Source of the DNA: an uncultured bacterium
GTDB taxonomy: Bacteria; Desulfobacterota_D; UBA1144
Assembly (NCBI GenBank): GCA_913050325.1
Contig: CAJWZP010000003.1
Span: 62,001 to 126,000, forward strand
DNA: 64,000 nt
Direction of reading: 5' to 3'
Shown: positions 1,038-63,602 of the stretch, one piece after another
Position numbering within the stretch: position 1 is the first letter of the stretch
Layout: the number at the start of each line of letters is the position of its first letter
The notes under the pieces: generated by a model
Told to the model about the DNA's origin: nothing
What the model saw: only the letters and a program-made list of their open reading frames with translations
Databases searched by the model: none
Made by a program: the position numbers and the translations under genes

Positions 1038-2045
1038 ATGTCAAAAAAAGATATTTTGGTTACTGGAGATAGACCTACAGGTAGTTTGCACTTAGGACAC
1101 TATGTTGGTACCTTAGAGAATAGATTAAAATTACAAAATGATTATGAGTGTTTTTTCCTCATTGCAGATTTACATATGCTCACAACTCATAATGAAAGAG
1201 TTAGTGAGCTTAGAGAAAATATTGAATCTTTAGTTATTGATTGGCTGTCTATTGGACTAGATCCAAATAAATCATGTTTTTATCTTCAATCACTTGTTCC
1301 AGAGATAAATGAATTAACTTTACTTCTCTCAATGATTTGCTCAGTTCCGAGAGTTCAAAGAATTCCAACACTTAAAGAAAAAACTGCACAGATGGGTGAT
1401 AATGAAAATTATTCAGTAGGTTTATTGTCATATCCTATATTGATGTCTGCTGATATTCTTATTTTTAATGCAAATAAAGTTCCAGTAGGTGAGGATCAAC
1501 TTAGTCATGTTGAGCTTGCTCGTGAATTGTCAAGAAGATTTAATTCTTTATATGGTGAAACAATTGTTGAGCCTGAACCCTTAGTAAGTGAGTTTTCAAG
1601 GTTAGTAGGAATCGATGGAAAAAGTAAAATGAGTAAATCATTAAACAATTGTATATATCTATCGGATAATGAAGACCATGTGATAAAAAAAGTAATGAAG
1701 ATGTTTACCGATCCAAATAGAACGAGTCCAGATGTACCAGGAAAGATTGAAGGTAATCCAGTATTTATTTATCATGATATATTTAATAAAGATACCGATG
1801 AGCTTAATGACTTTAAAGATAGATATCGCAAGGGAAAGATAGGTGATGTAGAAGTAAAGAAATCATTAGCAAAGAATATAAATAGCTTTCTAGAGCCAAT
1901 AAGAGAAAAAAGAGCTCAAATTTTTAAGAACAGAGGAGAATTATTTGATATAATAATAGAAGGTTCAAAAAGAGCTAGAAAAATAGCTAAAGAAAATATA
2001 GAAAAAATAAAAGATTCTATGAAGATAACTTTTAAGGAGATTTAA
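1038..2045 (+). CDS. trpS: Tryptophanyl-tRNA synthetase
   Basis: TGDRPTGSLHLGHYVG and KMSKS motifs. Confidence 0.96.
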   Translation: MSKKDILVTGDRPTGSLHLGHYVGTLENRLKLQNDYECFFLIADLHMLTTHNERVSELRENIESLVIDWLSIGLDPNKSCFYLQSLVPEINELTLLLSMICSVPRVQRIPTLKEKTAQMGDNENYSVGLLSYPILMSADILIFNANKVPVGEDQLSHVELARELSRRFNSLYGETIVEPEPLVSEFSRLVGIDGKSKMSKSLNNCIYLSDNEDHVIKKVMKMFTDPNRTSPDVPGKIEGNPVFIYHDIFNKDTDELNDFKDRYRKGKIGDVEVKKSLAKNINSFLEPIREKRAQIFKNRGELFDIIIEGSKRARKIAKENIEKIKDSMKITFKEI

Positions 2046-3278
2046 ATGTCACAAAATTCATATTCAGATCCGTTACCTATTGGTGTTATTCCAGATTTAG
2101 ATTTTACTCCCAAACAAATGAGAGCTTGGGTGATAAGGAAAGAGAGACATGGAGAACCAACAAAATCTTTTCAAGAAGAGATTATGCCTGTTCCTGAATG
2201 TGGCCCTAATGATGTTTTAGTTCTAGTTGTAGCTACTGGAATTAATTTTAATGGAGTTTGGGCTGGGTTAGGTGAACCTATTTCAGTATTAGATGTCCAT
2301 AAAGGAGATTTTCATATCGCTGGTAGTGATTGCTCTGGCATAGTTTGGGATGTAGGATCTAATGTTAAAAGTTGGAAGAAAGGAGATGAAGTCATAATAC
2401 ACTGTGGAGTTGAGAGTGAGGAACCTCATTCTAATATGACACAGAGTAATGCTGATTTTATAAGTTATGATCCTATGGTTAGTAAAGGGGCTCAAATATG
2501 GGGTTATGAGACTCCTAATGGATGTTTTGCTCAATTTACAAGAGTACAAGCTCAACAGATTTTAAAAAAGCCTAAACATCTATCTTGGGAAGATGCAGCT
2601 TCTTACGCTTTATGCTACTTTACTGCTTATAGAATGCTTGTAACAAAAGCAAATATTCAGCCTGGGGAAGTTGTTCTAGTCTGGGGTGCTGCCGGTGGCC
2701 TGGGAGTTTTTGCTTTACAAATTTGTAAAATGATGGGTGCAAAAGCAATTGCAGTGGTTTCATCAAATGATAAATTTAAAATGTGTGAAGATTTAGGTGC
2801 AGTTGGAGTTATAAATAGAAAAGATTTTCCTAATTTACCATACAAGAAAAATGAAACCGAAGAAGAGTCACAGCTCAGATTTAAAGAAATGAAAAATTTT
2901 GGAAAAAAGATTTGGGAAATTTTAGGTGAAAGAAGGAGTCCAAACGTTGTATTTGAACATCCTGGTGAAACAACTTTTCCTGCAAGTGTTTTTGTATGTG
3001 AAAGATTTGGTAGGGTAGTTATATGTGCAGGTACTACTGGATATGATTGCATGTTTGATGTTAGATATTTATGGATGCTTCAAAAAGATGTTATAGGCTC
3101 ACATTTTGCAAATGCATTAGAGTGTGTAAGAGCAAATGAGTTGGTCCATCAAGGTTTAATTAACCCCGTTGTTTCTGAGATTTTTAATTATGATGAGATT
3201 CCTAAAGCACATCAACTTATGTATGAAAATAAACACTCAGGAAAAATGGTTTGTATGGTTCAGGGAACTAAACCTTAA
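2046..3278 (+). CDS. ccr: Crotonyl-CoA carboxylase/reductase-like MDR family protein
   Basis: MDR fold: AGSDCSGIVWDVG, GEVVLVWGAAGGLGVFALQICKMMGAKAIAVVSS; N-terminus and length resemble Ccr; ORF abuts trpS stop with AAGGAG just upstream. Confidence 0.85.
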   Translation: MSQNSYSDPLPIGVIPDLDFTPKQMRAWVIRKERHGEPTKSFQEEIMPVPECGPNDVLVLVVATGINFNGVWAGLGEPISVLDVHKGDFHIAGSDCSGIVWDVGSNVKSWKKGDEVIIHCGVESEEPHSNMTQSNADFISYDPMVSKGAQIWGYETPNGCFAQFTRVQAQQILKKPKHLSWEDAASYALCYFTAYRMLVTKANIQPGEVVLVWGAAGGLGVFALQICKMMGAKAIAVVSSNDKFKMCEDLGAVGVINRKDFPNLPYKKNETEEESQLRFKEMKNFGKKIWEILGERRSPNVVFEHPGETTFPASVFVCERFGRVVICAGTTGYDCMFDVRYLWMLQKDVIGSHFANALECVRANELVHQGLINPVVSEIFNYDEIPKAHQLMYENKHSGKMVCMVQGTKP

Positions 3279-4047
3279 GATTTTTTTTTATATATGTTGG
3301 ATTAGTTTTACTTTCTTTTACTAATTTCATATTAGTTTTTCCAGTTAAAACTAGAAGAGAGTCAATGCCAGAATCGTTGGAGCCCTGAATATCTGTATTC
3401 AAGTTGTCACCTATAGTTAATATTTTATTTTTTTTATTTTTTAATTTATTAATTGCCAACTTAAAAATTTCTTTTGAAGGTTTTCCAAGATTTATTACTC
3501 TTGTATCGTGTGTTTTGAGTATTGCTGCAATTATTGAACCAGTTGCAGGTACATTTCCCATTTTTGTTGGATAAGAGTTGTCAATACTTGTTGCATAAAG
3601 CTTTGCCCCGTTCTGAACACATAACGATGAATACATTAAATCATCATAAGAGAAATCTTTGTTTCCCGAAACAAGAAGATTTTTTGCTTGTTTATAATTC
3701 TTATTATTTATTATATTTAAACCTTCTTTTATCAAGAATTTTCTTAATTCTTTACTGCAAAAAGCCAAAGTTTTTTTATTCTTACTCCTTATAGTTTCTA
3801 TAAAATTATTTATTGGCGTTATAACTTGATTTGATGAACATTTAATTCCTTCTCTATTTAAAATCTTAGTATACTGTGAAGGAGACAGAGTAGAATCGTT
3901 TGTTAAAAAAACATAATTTTTATTCTTTTTAATTAGTGTATTTATAAAAGTTTTTGAATAGGACAGTGGTTTTTTATCAAGATAGATAACACCATCAAGA
4001 TCGATTATATAACCATCATATTTTTCAATTAATTCAATCATCCCCAA
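3268..4047 (-). CDS. HAD-superfamily (NagD-like, IIA) hydrolase
   Basis: YIIDLDGVIYLDKKPL, FLTNDST, ILTIGDNLNTDIQGSNDSGIDSLLVLTG. Confidence 0.9.
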   Translation of the reverse strand: MGMIELIEKYDGYIIDLDGVIYLDKKPLSYSKTFINTLIKKNKNYVFLTNDSTLSPSQYTKILNREGIKCSSNQVITPINNFIETIRSKNKKTLAFCSKELRKFLIKEGLNIINNKNYKQAKNLLVSGNKDFSYDDLMYSSLCVQNGAKLYATSIDNSYPTKMGNVPATGSIIAAILKTHDTRVINLGKPSKEIFKLAINKLKNKKNKILTIGDNLNTDIQGSNDSGIDSLLVLTGKTNMKLVKESKTNPTYIKKNLKV

Positions 4048-4361
4048 ATTTCTTTTGCTAATTTTTGATCCCTGACTCTAGATGATTCTTTTTTCATTAT
4101 TTTTATAATTTTTTCTTCGGGTTCTTCCGCTATTACTATTTCCAGAAAATCTAAGACTTGTAATGAAGCTTTTTTAAAACCTTCATAATAATCAGTAGAC
4201 TCTCCAGACGCTTTTGCAGTTTTATTATCTAAAAATAACGCAATAGCTGCAAAATCTCTATTTATATCATCATCAATTTTAATTTCCCATCCTTCATAAT
4301 CACCTATTAAGTAAACTTTGCTCCATTCGTCTAATATTTGATCAAAATCTAAATTACTCAT
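4038..4361 (-). CDS. Small acidic hypothetical protein
   Basis: 107-aa ORF overlapping neighbours in a same-strand run; no family recognised. Confidence 0.6.
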   Translation of the reverse strand: MSNLDFDQILDEWSKVYLIGDYEGWEIKIDDDINRDFAAIALFLDNKTAKASGESTDYYEGFKKASLQVLDFLEIVIAEEPEEKIIKIMKKESSRVRDQKLAKEIWG

Positions 4362-4756
4362 GTTATATCAAGTTCTCCTGCTACAATAATATTTTCTTTA
4401 CAAGAATTAACAATAATCTTAACTGCTTCTTCAAAATTATCATTATTTTCCAATGTTGAAGCTTTCAAAAGCATTGGCAAATTGACTCCCGAAATTATTT
4501 CAATTTCATTTTTTTTAAAATACGGGAGGCTTATATTGGATGGTGTACCACCAAACATATCAGTAAAAATTATATTATATTTAGATTCAATTAAACAATT
4601 TGCTATTTTATTGGAGTAAGTTTCAAAATCCCTAGAATTTTCATCAATACTAATAGTAAATATTTTTCTATTCATTTTATTATCTAAAATAAATTCTACA
4701 GATGCTTTTAACTCTTCACATAAATTTCCATGTGTAATTATAAGTATGTTAAACAT
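4358..4756 (-). CDS. PTS mannose-type EIIA component
   Basis: FNILIITHGNLCEEL (active His) and IIFTDMFGGTPSNI motif. Confidence 0.85.
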   Translation of the reverse strand: MFNILIITHGNLCEELKASVEFILDNKMNRKIFTISIDENSRDFETYSNKIANCLIESKYNIIFTDMFGGTPSNISLPYFKKNEIEIISGVNLPMLLKASTLENNDNFEEAVKIIVNSCKENIIVAGELDIT

Positions 4757-4784
4757 TTATAAATTCTAAAACTTAAATTGTATA

Positions 4785-5261
4785 TTACAATCTTCCTTCA
4801 AAATTTAGTTTTTTTACTGCAATTTCAATTAACGTTGATATATTTCTACCTGGGCTAACAGGAATTTCAATTGATGGGATTTTTATACCTGATATTTCTT
4901 CTTCTTTTGTATCATATCCTAACCGGTCATATTTATTTTCTTTATTAAAATCAACTAAATTAACTATCAATTTTATCTCTGATTCGTCCAGAGCTGATAA
5001 GTAACCAAATATATTTTTAACATTTAATATTCCAATTCCTCTAATTTCAATCAGATTTTTTATATTCTCAGGCGCATATCCAAGCAACTTATTTTCTATT
5101 TTTTTTAATAGAACTAAATCATCAGCTACTAACTGTGCACCTTTATTTAAAAGTTCCACAGCACATTCACTTTTACCAATACCACTTTTTCCTTTTATAA
5201 GAACTCCAAATCCACTGATACTTATTAGAACCCCATGAATGTTGTTATTTTCTTTATTCAT
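4785..5261 (-). CDS. hprK: HPr kinase/phosphorylase, short catalytic-domain form
   Basis: Walker A GKSGIGKSECA, LVADDLV, IEIRGIGILN HprK signature; no N-terminal domain. Confidence 0.88.
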   Translation of the reverse strand: MNKENNNIHGVLISISGFGVLIKGKSGIGKSECAVELLNKGAQLVADDLVLLKKIENKLLGYAPENIKNLIEIRGIGILNVKNIFGYLSALDESEIKLIVNLVDFNKENKYDRLGYDTKEEEISGIKIPSIEIPVSPGRNISTLIEIAVKKLNFEGRL

Positions 5262-5706
5262 TATCTTTTATAATATTAAATACTTCAAAATTATCAGATG
5301 TATTAATAATCCTCTCTATAACCTCTTTACTTGAAAATAAATTTGCAATATTTCTAAGTATTAATAAATGTTTTTTTATGTCGGAATCAGGATGTAGTAA
5401 AAGTATTATAATTTTAGTATCTTTTCCATCAATAGATCCAAACTGAATTCCTTGTTTATTAATTGCTAAGCAACAATATGTTTTATTTAATCCAGATATT
5501 TTAGCATGAGGTATTGCGATATGATTATCTAAAGCAGTACTACAAAGATTTTCTCTTTTAATTATGGATTCATGCACTAAATTAAAATCCAAATCACTAT
5601 CAGATAAACATAAATTTTGAACAATTTCTTTAATACATAAATCTTTTTTATTAGATTTTATCTTAGTAAAAATTAATCCTGGAGTCAAAATTTCAGATAA
5701 ATTCAT
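5254..5706 (-). CDS. ptsN: PTS IIA-like nitrogen regulatory protein
   Basis: ENLCSTALDNHIAIPHAKI fructose/Ntr EIIA active site. Confidence 0.88.
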   Translation of the reverse strand: MNLSEILTPGLIFTKIKSNKKDLCIKEIVQNLCLSDSDLDFNLVHESIIKRENLCSTALDNHIAIPHAKISGLNKTYCCLAINKQGIQFGSIDGKDTKIIILLLHPDSDIKKHLLILRNIANLFSSKEVIERIINTSDNFEVFNIIKDNE

Positions 5707-7022
5707 CTTTTTTTTCTTCTATTTGAGGATGTAGGTATTTTAAGTATATTTCTATATTTTGCAATAGTTCTTCTAGCAATATTTATTCCTTTTCTTTTTA
5801 AAATATCTAAAATATCTTGATCCGATAACGGTGTTCTTTTATCTTCGTTTTGAATAAGCTCTTTTATAATAGATCTTATTGATACAGATGAAAAATTTTT
5901 ATTTGAATCAACTTTATTACTGAAAAACTCTTTTAGATTTATAAATCCATTCTTTGTAAGTATATACTTGTTACTTGTTATTCTGCTAACCGTTGATTCA
6001 TGTATACCTAGTTCAGTGGCAATATCAGCCAGTCTTAAAGGTTTTAAATACTTTTCACCTTTAAGAATATAATCTTTTTGAGTATTACATATAAGTTTTA
6101 TAGCTTTTTCGCACATTTGATTTCTCTCTTTTATTGTGTTTAAAATTGTTTGAGCTTCATTTATTCTGGAATCTAAAAAATTTAAGACTTCATTAGATAA
6201 ACTTTCTTTATTTTTCATAAGGGATGAATAGTATTGTGAAATTTTAATTTCTCTATAATTTTTATTTGATTGATATATCAATTTCTTATTTTCAAAAAAA
6301 ACAAAAGCTTCATAATCTGTATTATATTCAACTTCACTATTATTATTTATTGTTAGACCTGGTCTTGGATCAAGACCAGATAGCTCTTTTATAAAATTAT
6401 TAATAAAAAACTCAGTACATTTATATTTTTTTATTAAGAATTTATTTTCTTTTTTATTTAATAAATTGAAATCATTAAAAATTATATTTTTTTTTATTTC
6501 GATTTCTTTACTGTTGTTTAATTCTAATTGAATGATTAAGCTTTCTTTAATATCTTTTACAAATATTCCAGAAGGTTCAAACTTTTCTCGACAGAATATT
6601 ATTAATTCATCAATTTCAATTCTAGTTAAATTTTTATCTAGTTTATTTTTAAATAGTTCAATTATTTCATCATATTCTAAGTCTAAAAAACCATTTTCAT
6701 CAAGTAATAAAATTAAATAATAAATAAGTTCTTTCTTTATCTTTTTAATGTTTAATGTAATTAATTGCTGGCTGAGATAATTTTTAAGATCTAGTTTTTT
6801 TTCTTCATGTTTTGAAGAATCAAAGTATTCCATCACTTCATTTCTTTTAGATCTATTAAATGATTTTTCTTCAATACATGGGTTATTTTCAAGTTGCTCA
6901 CCAATATATTCATCTAATTGAGTTTTACTAAATGATATTAATTTTATAAATAACTTTGATTGAGGGCTTAAATTGATTTTAGTTTTTACATTCCCTTTCT
7001 GTTTTGTAATAATTCTTTTCAT
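5703..7022 (-). CDS. rpoN: RNA polymerase sigma-54 factor
   Basis: C-terminal RpoN box ARRTIAKYRNILKIPTSSNRR; LADIATELGIHESTVSRITSNKYI. Confidence 0.95.
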   Translation of the reverse strand: MKRIITKQKGNVKTKINLSPQSKLFIKLISFSKTQLDEYIGEQLENNPCIEEKSFNRSKRNEVMEYFDSSKHEEKKLDLKNYLSQQLITLNIKKIKKELIYYLILLLDENGFLDLEYDEIIELFKNKLDKNLTRIEIDELIIFCREKFEPSGIFVKDIKESLIIQLELNNSKEIEIKKNIIFNDFNLLNKKENKFLIKKYKCTEFFINNFIKELSGLDPRPGLTINNNSEVEYNTDYEAFVFFENKKLIYQSNKNYREIKISQYYSSLMKNKESLSNEVLNFLDSRINEAQTILNTIKERNQMCEKAIKLICNTQKDYILKGEKYLKPLRLADIATELGIHESTVSRITSNKYILTKNGFINLKEFFSNKVDSNKNFSSVSIRSIIKELIQNEDKRTPLSDQDILDILKRKGINIARRTIAKYRNILKIPTSSNRRKKR

Positions 7023-33754: not shown

Positions 33755-34795
33755 ATGATATACAATTTATTAAAACCTTTAATTTGGAAAATTGACCCTG
33801 AAAAAGCACATGAGTTAGTAATAAAATTATTAAAATTAAACTTTTTAAGTGAATATACTTTAGATGATACAGAGCTACTTAATGTTAAGTTGTGTAATCA
33901 AACTTTTCCAACACCTGTAGGCCTAGCAGCAGGATTTGATAAAAACTTTGAGGTTTTTGATAAAATGTTCAATTTGGGCTTTGGATTTGTAGAGGGTGGA
34001 ACAGTGACACCATTACCTCAATCTGGTAATCCTAAACCAAGAATATTTAGACTTATAGAGGACGAAGCTTTAATTAACAGATTAGGCTTTAATAATGATG
34101 GTCTAGAGATAATAAAGAAAAATATAATAAATAAGCTTGATAGATTTAAACCTAACAAACTTGGCGTTAATATTGGTCCAAACAAAGACTCACACAATAG
34201 AATTTCTGATTATATTAAATGCTATAAATCTTTGGCTAAATATTCAGATTATATTACGATAAATATTTCATCACCCAATACGCCAAATTTGAGAAATTTC
34301 GAAAATAGTGAGATTGATGATTTATTATCTGAAATAAATCTTAATAAAAAAAATGAAAAAAATATCTTTATAAAATTATCACCAGATTTAGATGTAAAAA
34401 CTTTTGAAAAAACTTTAGATAAAATATTGAGTTACAAAATGAATGGGATTATTTTAACCAATACAACAATCTCTAGAAATAATAATTTAACTTCATCTTT
34501 ATCAACAGAAGAAGGAGGACTATCAGGAAAGCCACTAACCAGAACTTCGCTTGAAAGAATTTCACTTGCTTATAAATTAGTCGGTTCAGATATCCCAATA
34601 ATAGGTGTTGGAGGAATATTTAATTCTAATGATGCTATTGATAAAATTAAAGCAGGTGCGAGTGCAATCCAAATCTATACTGGCTTGATCTATAAAGGAC
34701 CTGGAATCGCAAGGGATATTAATAAAGGAATAAGTGAATATTTAAAAAGAAATGGGATGACCAATGTAATGCAGCTAATTGGAACTAGTCATTAA
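33755..34795 (+). CDS. pyrD: Dihydroorotate dehydrogenase (quinone, class 2)
   Basis: PVGLAAGFDKN, GFGFVEGGTVTPLPQSGNPKPRIFRL, ISSPNTPNLR, IGVGGIFN. Confidence 0.96.
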   Translation: MIYNLLKPLIWKIDPEKAHELVIKLLKLNFLSEYTLDDTELLNVKLCNQTFPTPVGLAAGFDKNFEVFDKMFNLGFGFVEGGTVTPLPQSGNPKPRIFRLIEDEALINRLGFNNDGLEIIKKNIINKLDRFKPNKLGVNIGPNKDSHNRISDYIKCYKSLAKYSDYITINISSPNTPNLRNFENSEIDDLLSEINLNKKNEKNIFIKLSPDLDVKTFEKTLDKILSYKMNGIILTNTTISRNNNLTSSLSTEEGGLSGKPLTRTSLERISLAYKLVGSDIPIIGVGGIFNSNDAIDKIKAGASAIQIYTGLIYKGPGIARDINKGISEYLKRNGMTNVMQLIGTSH

Positions 34796-35494
34796 GCTTT
34801 CTGCATTTTCAATCATTATGTTCTTACCATTAACAAATTTATTTTCTAAAATATAGTCAATTGAATTTAATATTGAATTAATACCATTTTTGCTTTTATA
34901 TTTATTTTTATAAATATTTTTAATTTTCTTATCATTAGGTTTTAAAATTGGTCCTAACTCTATAGAATTTACCCTTACATTATTTTTTAATTCTTTAGTT
35001 AAAGATTTTGTAAAAATTTGAATATAACTTTTTGATATTGAATAACTCATAAAACTTTTCCAAGGATTCTTAACAGCAACCGAATCACCAATATTTATTA
35101 TGTTGCCACCATTATCCTCTTGCATTAATTTCCCTAGTTCAACTGAAAGTAAAATTGGAGAAATCATATTTATATTAAATTGTTTTTTTATTCTTTTTAT
35201 ATTTAAATCATCTTTTTCAAAAATTGAAGCATTATTAATTAAAAGATCAATCTTACCAAACTTTGAGTAGCATTTATTAGAAAATTGAATAATATTTTGT
35301 GTATTAGAAAAATCATATTTAATAATTTTAGATTTTATATTTAAATTTTTTAAATGGTTTTTTAAATGCTTAGCTTCATAATCTGAAGAATTATAGTGAA
35401 TTATAAAAAAATATTTCTTCTTAGCTAAATGTAAAACTATTTCTTTACCAATTCTTTTACAACAACCAGTAACTAGTGCAATTTTATTATCCAT
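34775..35494 (-). CDS. Short-chain dehydrogenase, FolM/pteridine reductase-like
   Basis: ALVTGCCKRIGKEI (TGxxxRIG), LLINNASIF, YSISKSYIQ. Confidence 0.75.
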   Translation of the reverse strand: MDNKIALVTGCCKRIGKEIVLHLAKKKYFFIIHYNSSDYEAKHLKNHLKNLNIKSKIIKYDFSNTQNIIQFSNKCYSKFGKIDLLINNASIFEKDDLNIKRIKKQFNINMISPILLSVELGKLMQEDNGGNIINIGDSVAVKNPWKSFMSYSISKSYIQIFTKSLTKELKNNVRVNSIELGPILKPNDKKIKNIYKNKYKSKNGINSILNSIDYILENKFVNGKNIMIENAESLMTSSN

Positions 35495-57605: not shown

Positions 57606-58541
57606 ATGAAAGTTTCGGTAACTACACCTGTATGGGGATGTTCAACTAATAATCTAATTGCTATAGCAAAAATGGCAGAGGATTCAGGAGTATATTCAAT
57701 ATTATCACCCGAGGTTCCACCTTATAGTGGTCTTGCAAATGCAAATTTAATGGCAAATCACACGTCCAATACAAAAGTAGGAACATGGATTTCAAATATT
57801 TATCTTAGACATTCTGTTTTATGTGCAGCGGAAGCGATGACCATTCAAGAATTTAGTAATGATAGATTATTGTTAGGATTGGGTGTTTCACATAAACCAG
57901 TAAATTCAAGATTAGGAATTGATATGGGTGATCCAATAGAATCAATGAGGACATATGTGAATGATATTAGGTCATATGTAGACGGTAGCTCTGAGCAGAT
58001 AAGTTTAAAAAGAAAAGTAACACAGTTCCCTATATTCATAGCAGGATTAACAGAAAAAACAGCCGAACTGGCAGGCGAGGTAGCCGATGGCTTAATGCCA
58101 TATTTAGCAAGCACTGAGCACATTAAAAAATTAATTAGTTCAGTTTCAAAAGGTAGAGAAAATTCTGACTTACAAGGTACACCATTCTGTATGACTGCAG
58201 GATTACCTTCGTTTATTTCAGATGATGAAGATAAAGCAATTGAATCTGCAATAAAAGGTTTATCAGGATATGCTAGGCTTCCATATTATCAAAGAGTTCT
58301 CGACTTAAGCGGGTATGGCGAAATAGTAAAGAGAATACAAGCTGGTGAAAACCCTGCTGAATGTTTGACAGCTGAACTAGTGAAAGATCTTGCACTAGTA
58401 GGTTCTGTTTCAAATTGTAAAAATACATTAAATAAATTTATTGAAGCTGGGGTTGAAATGCCAATTATTACACCTAATGCTGTAGGTAAACAAAGCCCAT
58501 TGGAAGTAATGCAAAATATTGTAGATGTTATTCAAAGCTAG
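57606..58541 (+). CDS. LLM-class (luciferase-like) flavin-dependent oxidoreductase
   Basis: TM-barrel pattern with TKVGTWISNIYLRHSVLCAAEAMTIQEFSNDRLLLGLGVSHKPV; strong GGAGG upstream. Confidence 0.9.
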   Translation: MKVSVTTPVWGCSTNNLIAIAKMAEDSGVYSILSPEVPPYSGLANANLMANHTSNTKVGTWISNIYLRHSVLCAAEAMTIQEFSNDRLLLGLGVSHKPVNSRLGIDMGDPIESMRTYVNDIRSYVDGSSEQISLKRKVTQFPIFIAGLTEKTAELAGEVADGLMPYLASTEHIKKLISSVSKGRENSDLQGTPFCMTAGLPSFISDDEDKAIESAIKGLSGYARLPYYQRVLDLSGYGEIVKRIQAGENPAECLTAELVKDLALVGSVSNCKNTLNKFIEAGVEMPIITPNAVGKQSPLEVMQNIVDVIQS

Positions 58542-60140: not shown

Positions 60141-60557
60141 ATGAACGATTACATGACTTTATCAAAGAGAATTGAGTTTTCTGCTTCACACAGATACTGG
60201 AATGATGAATGGTCTGAGGAAGAAAATATTAAGAATTTTGGAAAATGTACAAGTAAATTTGGACATGGTCATAATTATGTTCTTGAAACTACAGTTAAAG
60301 GTCCCGTTGACCCTGAGACAGGTATGATTATAAATATTTATAATTTGAAACCAATCTTAAAGGGCGTTTTAAAAGAGTTCGATCATAAATTTTTAAATAT
60401 CGATACTGATTATTTTGAAAAATTAATTCCAACTACAGAAAACTTTGCTAAAATACTGTATGAATGTATTGATGAAAAATTAAAAGATACTAGTTGTAAG
60501 CTGTTAAAAGTGAGATTGTACGAAACTAAAGATTTATTTGTGGATTATTGGAAGTAA
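60141..60557 (+). CDS. 6-pyruvoyl-tetrahydropterin synthase/QueD family protein, paralog 1
   Basis: EFSASHRYW, GKCTSKFGHGHNY (C-x5-HGH), TGMIINIYNLK, FDHKFLN. Confidence 0.9.
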   Translation: MNDYMTLSKRIEFSASHRYWNDEWSEEENIKNFGKCTSKFGHGHNYVLETTVKGPVDPETGMIINIYNLKPILKGVLKEFDHKFLNIDTDYFEKLIPTTENFAKILYECIDEKLKDTSCKLLKVRLYETKDLFVDYWK

Positions 60558-60977
60558 ATGGAAGAAAATTGTACCTTAACAAAGATTTATTCTTTTAGTG
60601 CCGCACATAGGCTGCACAATGATAAATTTTCTGAAAAAGAAAATAAAGAAATTTTTGGTAAATGTAATAATCCCAATGGTCATGGACATGATTATTATTT
60701 GGAATTAACAGTTAGTGGTAAGGTAGCAGATGACACTGGAATGATAATCAAGTTAGATGTTTTAGATTCCATAGTTATGCAAGTAATTGATTATTTAGAT
60801 CATAAAAGGTTAGATGTTGAAATTGATCATTTTGTTAATGTTCGTGCATCTGGTGAAAATATTGCGAAATATTTATGGGATAAACTGGTAGATAAAATTC
60901 CACAGCCTGCCTATCTTTATCATATTAGATTGTGGGAAACATCTGAAAATTATTTCGATTATAGGGGTGAAAAATGA
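60558..60977 (+). CDS. 6-pyruvoyl-tetrahydropterin synthase/QueD family protein, paralog 2
   Basis: SFSAAHRLH, GKCNNPNGHGHDY (C-x5-HGH), TGMIIKLDVL, LDHKRLD, RLWETSENYFDYRGE. Confidence 0.92.
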   Translation: MEENCTLTKIYSFSAAHRLHNDKFSEKENKEIFGKCNNPNGHGHDYYLELTVSGKVADDTGMIIKLDVLDSIVMQVIDYLDHKRLDVEIDHFVNVRASGENIAKYLWDKLVDKIPQPAYLYHIRLWETSENYFDYRGEK

Positions 60978-61831
60978 AAACTATTGAATTAACATGGGAA
61001 GATATAATTTCTAGAATTGAGTATATTAAAAAGAAGAATAAAATCACTTCCAAAACAAAAATATTTGGAGTTCCAAAAAACGGCATGATTGTAGCTAGTT
61101 TTTTTGGCTGTAAAAATGTCTATAACCCTGAAGATGCTGATATCATAGTTGATGACATAATAGATTCTGGAAAAACTAAAAAGAAATATAGAAAAATGTT
61201 TCCAAAAAAGAAATTTATTGTTTTATTTGAAAAAGATAAAAAAGGAACATGGATTAATTTTCCATATGAGAAAAATTCTGAATCAGACTATCAAGATTTG
61301 GTTGTTAGGCTCTTGCAAGTAATAGGAGAAGATCCAAACAGAGAAGGTTTGCTTGATACTCCTAGAAGATACCTAGATGCATTTAAAGAGTTTTTATCTC
61401 CACCCGAGTTTAATATGACAACTTTTGATGTTGAAAATACTGATGAAATGATTGTCCAATTAGATATTCCCTTTTATTCTTTTTGTGAGCACCATGTTCT
61501 TCCTTTTTTTGGTAAAGGCTATATTGCGTATGTGCCGAATAAAAAAATTGTTGGTCTAAGCAAGTTGGCGAGAACTTTAGAAACGTTTTCAAGAAGATTA
61601 CAAAATCAAGAAAGGATTACTAACCAAGTGGCCCAATACTTACAAGCAAATCTTAAAGCCAAAGGAGTTGCAGTAGTTTTAAAGGCCAGACATATGTGTA
61701 TGGAAATGCGTGGCGTAAAAACTTCAGACACGCATACAATAACTAGTAAATTATTAGGAAGCTTTAAAAGTGATGAAAGAACAAGGGCTGAATTCTTAAA
61801 TCTTATTGGTAATCATAGGAATATTGTTTAA
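60974..61831 (+). CDS. folE: GTP cyclohydrolase I with N-terminal phosphoribosyltransferase-like domain
   Basis: C-terminal PNREGLLDTPRRYLDAFKEFL, FCEHHVLPFFGKGYIAYVPNKKIVGLSKLAR, ARHMCMEMRGVKT; N-terminal GVPKNGMIVA and ADIIVDDIIDSGKT PRTase-like motif. Confidence 0.92.
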   Translation: MKTIELTWEDIISRIEYIKKKNKITSKTKIFGVPKNGMIVASFFGCKNVYNPEDADIIVDDIIDSGKTKKKYRKMFPKKKFIVLFEKDKKGTWINFPYEKNSESDYQDLVVRLLQVIGEDPNREGLLDTPRRYLDAFKEFLSPPEFNMTTFDVENTDEMIVQLDIPFYSFCEHHVLPFFGKGYIAYVPNKKIVGLSKLARTLETFSRRLQNQERITNQVAQYLQANLKAKGVAVVLKARHMCMEMRGVKTSDTHTITSKLLGSFKSDERTRAEFLNLIGNHRNIV

Positions 61832-62530
61832 ATGAAAAACGTAGTAATTAGTGGCGGTACTAGTGGAATAGGTAGACAGCTCGTACATCTTTTTTTAGAT
61901 GAAGGCCATAATGTTGTTACTTTCTCGAGAAATAAAAAAAAATTAAATAAATTATTTAATGAGGTAAAAAATTTTCCTGGAAAATTATCTTGTATGCAAT
62001 GCGATGTAAGCAAACCAGAACAAATTAAAAAAATATCTTTAAAGCTGAAGAAAGATCTTAAAACTGTTCATTATTTAATAAATAATTCAGGTACCAATTC
62101 ACTAGGCACCATTGATAAAATAAAATTAAATGATTGGAAAAAAATAATTGATGTAAATTTGACTGGCCCTTTCTATCTTACACAATGTTTATTTTCTGCT
62201 TTAAGAAAAAATTCAGTTGTACTGAATATGGGTTCTATTGCGTCAAAAACGGGCTTTCCTAATTGGTCAGCATATTGTTCTTCTAAATTCGGATTAAAAG
62301 GTTTTACTGAATCACTCAGAGAAGAACTTAGGCCAAAAGGTGTAAGGGTTATTCATGCAGAAGTAGGTGCAACCAACACTGCTATTTGGGATGATCTTGG
62401 AGATGGATGGAATAAAGATTCGATGATGAATGAAAAAGAAGTCGCCTTAGTAATTTTTGATAATTTAAAATTAAAAAATACCGTAAACATTGACGAATTT
62501 ACATTAATGCCCCCCGCCGGAATTCTATAA
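61832..62530 (+). CDS. Short-chain dehydrogenase/reductase
   Basis: VVISGGTSGIGRQLV, INNSGTNS, NMGSIASKTGFPNWSAYCSSKFGLKG (YxxxK). Confidence 0.93.
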   Translation: MKNVVISGGTSGIGRQLVHLFLDEGHNVVTFSRNKKKLNKLFNEVKNFPGKLSCMQCDVSKPEQIKKISLKLKKDLKTVHYLINNSGTNSLGTIDKIKLNDWKKIIDVNLTGPFYLTQCLFSALRKNSVVLNMGSIASKTGFPNWSAYCSSKFGLKGFTESLREELRPKGVRVIHAEVGATNTAIWDDLGDGWNKDSMMNEKEVALVIFDNLKLKNTVNIDEFTLMPPAGIL

Positions 62531-62543
62531 AATTTTATAAATT

Positions 62544-63602
62544 GTGTATACTAAAATGTCTATTATGGATATTAATGATATAGATAATGAATTGTTGAAT
62601 ATTCTTCAGAGCAATTTTCCTGTTGAGGATTCACCATTTTTTAAAATTGGTAAACAATTAAATATTTCTGAATCTGAGGTCATAGAGAGAATATCTAATC
62701 TCAAAAAAATTAAATATATTAGACAGATTAGTTCTATTTTTGATACACGAAGCATGAAATATAAATCTTCTCTAATTGCTATGGCATTTGAGAATAAGAA
62801 TTTAGATAGTGCTGCAGAAATTATAAACCTCCATCCTGGCATTACGCATAACTACAAAAGAAATCATTTTTATAATTTATGGTTTACTTTAGCAGTTCCA
62901 CCATCAAGTAAAATTGGACTTGAGAATACTGTAAAAATATTATCTGAATTAACAAATGCTAAATCAACAAGAATCTTACCTACCCTTAAGTTATTTAAAA
63001 TTGGTGTAAGACTAGACATGACTGGAAAAGATAATATTGGATCAAAAGAAGAAAATAATTTTTATGGAGAAAGTAACATATCTAAAGATTATGATTTTAG
63101 TGATAAAGATATTTTAATTATAAAACAGGTCCAAGAGGATTTTCCTCTTATTCCAGAACCCTATAAGCATATTGCCAAAAATGTTGGCATATCCTCTGAT
63201 GAATTAATTGATACTTTATTAAAGTTAAAATCTAAAGGGATTATGAGAAGAGTGGCGGCAATATTACATCATAGAAAAGCTGGATTTAAAGCTAATGCCA
63301 TGGGTGTCTGGGATGTTCCTGTGGATAAAATTGAAGAGGTTGCACCCAAAATGGCTGCTTTTAAATCAGTCAGTCACTGCTACAGAAGACCAACTTATCC
63401 TGATTGGCCGTATTCCTTATTTACAATGATTCATGGAAGATCTGCTATGGATTGCAATAATCTAATTAAACAACTTTCAGAAGTTAGCGGAATTGATAAA
63501 TATGATGCATTATATAGTTCTAAAGAATATAAAAAAACTAGGTTAAAATATTTTTGTCCCGAGCAAGAGGATTGGGAATCAAGGCATTTGGAGATGTTAT
63601 AA
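62544..63602 (+). CDS. AhbA-AhbB-like siroheme decarboxylase fusion (Lrp/AsnC-fold)
   Basis: Two tandem HTH+ligand-like halves: ELLNILQSNFPVEDSPFFKIGKQLNISE...HNYKRNHFYNLWFTL and DILIIKQVQEDFPLIPEPYKHIAKNVGIS...MRRVAAILHHRKAGFKANAMGVWDVP...VSHCYRRPTYPDWPYSLFTMIHG. Confidence 0.88.
   Translation: MYTKMSIMDINDIDNELLNILQSNFPVEDSPFFKIGKQLNISESEVIERISNLKKIKYIRQISSIFDTRSMKYKSSLIAMAFENKNLDSAAEIINLHPGITHNYKRNHFYNLWFTLAVPPSSKIGLENTVKILSELTNAKSTRILPTLKLFKIGVRLDMTGKDNIGSKEENNFYGESNISKDYDFSDKDILIIKQVQEDFPLIPEPYKHIAKNVGISSDELIDTLLKLKSKGIMRRVAAILHHRKAGFKANAMGVWDVPVDKIEEVAPKMAAFKSVSHCYRRPTYPDWPYSLFTMIHGRSAMDCNNLIKQLSEVSGIDKYDALYSSKEYKKTRLKYFCPEQEDWESRHLEML

Follow-up and report, generated by a model that had tools for sequence, protein, structure and literature searches.

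We analyzed a 64,000-nucleotide stretch of DNA (hereafter the window), and four genes in it, at 60141-62530 on the + strand, probably form an operon for a tetrahydrobiopterin (BH4)-type pterin, a reading to which we assign a probability of about 0.7. The main new point is that the proteins encoded by the first two genes, PTPS1 and PTPS2, appear from comparison of their sequences to be subunits of a single enzyme and not two separate enzymes of the pathway. The block and two conserved neighbors are as follows.

60141..60557, + strand: PTPS1, 138 aa, predicted PTPS-II-type; ortholog of the N-terminal domain of the two-domain bacterial PTPS
60558..60977, + strand: PTPS2, 139 aa, predicted PTPS-II-type; ortholog of the C-terminal domain of the Chloroflexi two-domain PTPS, with animal PTPS as its closest known type
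60974-61831, + strand: PRT-FolE fusion ORF, an XGPRT-like N terminus joined to GTPCH-I
60974..61288, + strand: XGPRT-like phosphoribosyltransferase domain, residues 1-105 of the fusion (fold, weak Pfam match, alignments)
61289..61831, + strand: GTP cyclohydrolase I (GTPCH-I) domain, FolE, in the same ORF as the XGPRT-like domain (Pfam, NCBIfam)
61832..62530, + strand: SDR, 232 aa, candidate sepiapterin-reductase-like enzyme (Pfam, NCBIfam and PDB profile matches)
62544..63602, + strand: fused siroheme decarboxylase AhbA-AhbB (NirDL), a conserved neighbor 13 nt downstream of the block, followed by hemA and hemC
57606..58541, + strand: LLM-class (F420/FMN, Mer-like) oxidoreductase, upstream; kept close to the block in both marine and sponge-type Dadabacteria

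The four open reading frames of the block, with their positions and junctions, are as a first-pass annotation of this DNA had given them, and Pfam and NCBIfam agree on the families (Pfam E-values of 6e-34 for PTPS1 and 1e-30 for PTPS2 with PTPS, 5e-65 with GTP_cyclohydroI, and 1e-47 with adh_short). The junctions are 0, -4, and 0 nt: the TAA stop of PTPS1 is followed immediately by the ATG of PTPS2, PTPS2 and PRT-FolE overlap by 4 nt in an ATGA, and PRT-FolE abuts the SDR gene. The genes had also been said to stand in pathway order, and this is wrong because FolE, the first enzyme of the pathway, is encoded by the third gene. In the scheme that we propose, the XGPRT-like domain may channel guanine or GMP towards GTP, and GTPCH-I would make dihydroneopterin triphosphate. 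PTPS1 and PTPS2 would then act as a two-component PTPS that converts dihydroneopterin triphosphate to 6-pyruvoyl-tetrahydropterin, with an ancestral shared active site made of the Cys of PTPS2 and the Asp-His of PTPS1, and the SDR would reduce the side chain in the fashion of sepiapterin reductase to give a BH4-like pterin. The likeliest product, we infer, is 6-pyruvoyl-tetrahydropterin, which the SDR would reduce to a pterin of the tetrahydrobiopterin type.

The window is part of a 1.0-Mb MAG, and the relatives of this MAG go by the name Candidatus Dadabacteria (UBA1144 and similar marine MAGs). Marine Dadabacteria are a streamlined group (PMC8115339), and the words pterin and folate have zero occurrences in the text of that paper. 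Conservation in relatives had been proposed as a check on the block, which we observe to be complete in 11/11 marine Dadabacteria family loci examined, and the set recurs across several phyla, so it is not a chance arrangement. The PRT-FolE fusion is present in 12 of the 14 family genomes. Two genomes, G002 and G005, are without the block, and we reject true loss there because the neighboring hemA is missing too, which indicates an assembly gap. In all 11 loci, the 3′ side of the block carries the fused siroheme decarboxylase and then hemA, with hemC where the contig is long enough; this association of AhbA-AhbB (NirDL) with hemA and hemC, seen in all marine loci read, suggests that this bacterium of ocean surface waters makes heme by the alternative siroheme route. 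Upstream of the block, LLM-class F420/FMN oxidoreductases are frequently present in two copies (window, 57606-58541; L079, 6376-8263; L078, 3830-4720), and the upstream oxidoreductase is a possible partner of the block. A radical SAM protein is conserved upstream of the block in relatives and is absent at that position in the window's own genome.

The PRT-FolE fusion, the SDR, and candidate consumers

The FolE domain of the fusion scores over the cut-offs of both of its models (TIGR00063, 204.6 bits vs 181.6; PF01227, 218.7 vs 27), and the PRTase domain has a weak Pfam match (PF00156, E=0.028, 14 bits). When residues 1-105 were folded alone (pLDDT 87), the top PDB matches by Foldseek were the XGPRTs of E. 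coli and Yersinia (E 3e-6, TM(query) about 0.7); for the full-length AlphaFold model, FolE alone was found among the matches listed. The PRPP loop of the XGPRT-like domain reads DDIIDSGKT. The original label of a PRTase joined to GTPCH-I therefore holds, its PRTase part being supported by the XGPRT fold match where PF00156 is weak. The modeled fold and the PRPP loop point to a putative XGPRT-type phosphoribosyltransferase, and that this domain supplies GMP is a guess.

Phages with deazaguanine operons carry the same fusion (L174, with queD, queE, and queC; VpKK5; MMDA13). XGPRT-FolE is common in deazaguanine DNA-modification phages, where 33 phage records matched over at least 80% of the fusion length; the fusion locus of L174 spans 1531-6843, L196 and L197 are further phage loci, and in phage PaMx25 the part upstream of FolE is a separate ORF. 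The proteins of VpKK5, MMDA13, and IMG/VR L174 are like that of the window in domain order and length, and the L174 protein is 36% identical to it along its whole length, but they adjoin DNA-modification genes (queD, queE, queC, and a tgt/DpdA-like gene) rather than PTPS-II and an SDR. Terrestrial Dadabacteria have a plain FolE at the position of the fusion, and in a FolE tree the marine FolE lies apart from the FolEs of the other blocks and the phage branches are long. The fusion may have been exchanged between phages and marine Dadabacteria.

The block SDRs of three phyla have in common their length, a GFPxWSAY region, and a C-terminal segment, and PRK07454 is the best NCBIfam model for 4/4 of those scanned. 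When a block-SDR profile was compared with the PDB, Chlorobium sepiapterin reductase (2bd0) ranked third of 781 and was the most completely aligned, from end to end; clavaldehyde dehydrogenase (2jah) scored slightly above it. The Chlorobium tepidum enzyme resembles the block SDRs in its end-to-end alignment, in the common C-terminal segment, and in its 36% identity to the L101 ortholog, but the window SDR is just 27% identical to it and equally close to 2jah. From these comparisons, sepiapterin-reductase activity of the window SDR is plausible. The SDR is missing from several terrestrial Dadabacteria blocks. The window also encodes a second pterin-type reductase, an SDR at 34775-35494 (-) with the TGX3RXG motif of pteridine reductases (TGCCKRIG), which scores 141 bits with PRK09135, below the cut-off.

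The absence of a pterin-dependent hydroxylase from the window, remarked on in the first-pass annotation, extends to the genome and its relatives. Protein-family searches, by which all genome-wide absences reported here were determined, covered the window genome and 13 relatives (G000-G013), and Biopterin_H (PF00351) was found in 0/14, so we reject an aromatic amino acid hydroxylase as the consumer. Pterin-4a-carbinolamine dehydratase (PCD, PF01329) is present in 14/14 genomes, divergently oriented to HPPK (L192 6842-7673, G000:C5); both are kept in all 14 despite the missing hydroxylase.

The product might instead be a pterin glycoside that serves, as it does in cyanobacteria and Chlorobium, in photoreception or in protection from light, and not an enzyme cofactor. 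A GT4 glycosyltransferase adjoins the block in L104, L110, L118, and L128, cyanobacterial BH4-glycosides have been linked to UV-A (PMC3546692), and proteorhodopsin-bearing surface clades exist among marine Dadabacteria (PMC8115339). However, the marine block is without a glycosyltransferase, and the block-linked GT4 resembles PimA-type enzymes more than it does 5zer, the BH4 glucosyltransferase. It has no clear ortholog in the window's genome, where the search gave no GT4 match, and we reject Dadabacteria orthologs because the relatives give just weak family-level matches of 20-28% identity. We consider a glycoside product unlikely.

Relationships and catalytic residues of the PTPS pair

In the window, the PTPS1 motif is CTSKFGHGH, with none of the Zn ligands, Cys, Asp-His, or Glu missing, and the PTPS2 motif is CNNPNGHGH, with a complete triad; both proteins read HCHHDHE at the seven scored positions and have the motif CxxxxxHGH. 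Neither has the QueD (PTPS-I) motif CxxxHGH, and both fall below the QueD cut-off (TIGR03367, 65.8 and 63.0 bits vs 89.25). The active-site Glu of PTPS-III (ExxHGH) is found in neither of them nor in PTPS3, a third PTPS of the genome (motif definitions from PMC5041015).

Searching the GTDB species genomes with PTPS1 gave 80 named loci, of which 80/80 have two adjacent PTPS domains. Among the 36 non-cyanobacterial loci (L094-L129), FolE adjoins the PTPS pair in 31/36 and an SDR in 28/36, and the set of PTPS pair, FolE, and SDR recurs in Dadabacteria, Calditrichota, and Chloroflexi. PTPS1 and PTPS2 are separate genes in Dadabacteria and Calditrichota, and a single fused PTPS of about 270-300 aa is found in Chloroflexi, WOR-3, and cyanobacteria. 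The tree puts two loci, L104 (titled Caldisericaceae) and L126 (titled Gracilibacteria), in Calditrichota and Chloroflexi, and they may be misbinned.

In a tree of 92 domains, which has few alignment columns and of which we rely on well-supported forks only, one clade (100/98) unites PTPS1 with all N-domains, and a second (100/94) unites PTPS2 with animal PTPS and the C-domains of Chloroflexi and WOR-3. PTPS3 branches as the sister of the PTPS1 clade. The cyanobacterial C-domains lie outside the PTPS2 clade, beside the very long branch of E. coli QueD, where their placement is unsure. The phylogeny had been named as a check that could place both copies inside QueD; they fall outside it, and both are most probably PTPS-II-type. 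Each member of the pair corresponds to one domain of the two-domain Chloroflexi PTPS, and PTPS1 also to the first domain of the cyanobacterial one; PTPS1 and PTPS2 would be the split counterpart of the two-domain PTPS. Two PTPS-family enzymes had been proposed at first, and two PTPS-II-type proteins are indeed encoded, but they look like subunits of one enzyme.

According to later papers that cite Kong et al. 2006 (PMC3546692, PMC5041015), bacterial BH4 synthesis is the work of PTPS orthologs with one or two domains, and Synechococcus PTPS-II has PTPS activity. The BH4-linked cyanobacterial bimodular PTPS-II of that study has the same two domains in the same order as the window pair, and its N-domains cluster with PTPS1; in the window, however, the domains are two separate abutting genes, and the cyanobacterial C-domains are not with PTPS2. 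Animal PTPS-II (rat 1b66, human 3i2b) has CxxxxxHGH, the Zn ligands, and Cys-Asp-His in common with the window proteins and lies in the same well-supported clade as PTPS2, but it is a homohexamer from one gene, whereas the window encodes two diverged subunits.

We scored the Zn ligands, Cys, Asp, His, and Glu at the columns of rat PTPS. The Zn ligands and Glu are retained almost everywhere in both subunits. Of 34 non-cyanobacterial pairs, 17 are complete, 5 are without the Cys of PTPS1 (Cys1) only, 8 have the Asp-His of PTPS2 (Asp-His2) alone altered (3 of these 8 being Asp to Glu), and 4 have lost both (L105, L111, L115, and the Caldithrix MAG L118). In these four, neither subunit has a full triad, and what remains is the Cys of PTPS2 and the Asp-His of PTPS1. 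Overall, Cys1 is lost in 9/34 (at least 3 events by parsimony) and Asp-His2 is altered in 12/34 (at least 5 events), with zero losses of Cys2 or Asp-His1. If either subunit is equally likely to be hit and the events are treated as independent, the probability that 8/8 loss events fall at a single reciprocal site is about 0.008. The PTPS triad is described, in papers that cite Burgisser et al. 1995 (PMC7546909, PMC2229834), as an "intersubunit catalytic triad," and together with the complementary losses this predicts a heteromer. The simplest reading of the residues is a PTPS1-PTPS2 heteromer in which the Cys2/Asp-His1 site is active and the Cys1/Asp-His2 site can be dispensed with.

Cyanobacteria show the opposite losses (His1, as against Cys1 and Asp-His2 in other phyla). 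In L130 and L132-L173, Asp-His1 is lost in 38/43 N-domains, 14 of these 38 also being without Cys1, and the C-domain triad is complete in 43/43. Cyanobacteria therefore appear to use the C-domain triad, and a heteromeric site would not be universal.

The window species has a full triad in both subunits, so each PTPS could act alone, and we infer the heteromer there from its relatives. This completeness favors a BH4-type block in which PTPS1 and PTPS2 are independent homomers with different substrates or products, for example, biopterin and another side-chain pterin, as does the report, as cited from Kong et al. 2006, that a single-domain bacterial PTPS works alone. Against it are the gene fusion in at least three groups and the four genomes without a complete triad in any single subunit, and we regard two independent enzymes as improbable. 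Returning to the two-subunit enzyme, our fullest version of it is tentative and somewhat short of even odds: in Dadabacteria, Calditrichota, and part of Chloroflexi, PTPS would be obligately or ancestrally heteromeric (Cys from PTPS2, Asp-His from PTPS1), the reciprocal site would be repeatedly decaying, and in streamlined marine bacteria the BH4-type pterin would serve a new consumer that is not a hydroxylase.

Folate and queuosine genes, and what the block implies

PF01242 finds three PTPS proteins in the genome, the pair and PTPS3, which has the motif CNNKNYHGH, lies at G000:C4:108877 between glyoxalase I and a DPRP-type photolyase (L075 8492-10806), and is present in 14/14 genomes. TGT and QueC are also in 14/14, both away from the block, and queC-queE is an operon outside it without queD. 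HPPK is present in 14/14 and FolB (dihydroneopterin aldolase) in 0/14, a gap in folate synthesis across the group. PTPS3 is the best candidate to supply the function of the missing QueD or FolB. FolE2 is found in 0/14 genomes, and we thereby reject an alternative GTPCH.

These gaps are what would favor a division of labor, with one PTPS of the pair QueD-like for queuosine, the other PTPS-III-like in place of the missing FolB, the SDR a dihydropterin reductase, and the block a folate and queuosine supply for a streamlined genome, all the more as its FolE is the sole GTPCH-I found. We reject this as the main explanation and think it quite improbable, because both copies are without the QueD and PTPS-III motifs, the pair is fused in other phyla, the catalytic losses are complementary, and PTPS3 is free for one or both jobs. 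A complete queuosine set elsewhere in the genome with no other QueD had been named as evidence that could overturn the pterin reading; queC, queE, and tgt do lie elsewhere, but the third PTPS is available to them. The first-pass proposal of a dedicated BH4-type pathway, rather than plain folate or queuosine synthesis, keeps its core, given the PTPS-II motifs, the position outside QueD, the recurrence of FolE and the SDR, and the match to the BH4-linked two-domain PTPS. Its exclusivity does not extend to FolE, which, as the only GTPCH-I found, must supply folate and queuosine as well.

Biopterin has been described as rare in bacteria (PMC13259868), and our search for literature on BH4 in Calditrichota or Chloroflexi found nothing relevant. 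The tetrahydrobiopterin-type reading would extend BH4-type biosynthesis to Dadabacteria and Calditrichota, phyla not named in the literature found on it. Retention of the entire block for probable biopterin-type synthesis in a genome of only about 1 Mb implies a function under strong selection, and the split PTPS with its complementary losses would be a test case for the passage from a homomer with an intersubunit site to a two-gene heteromer.
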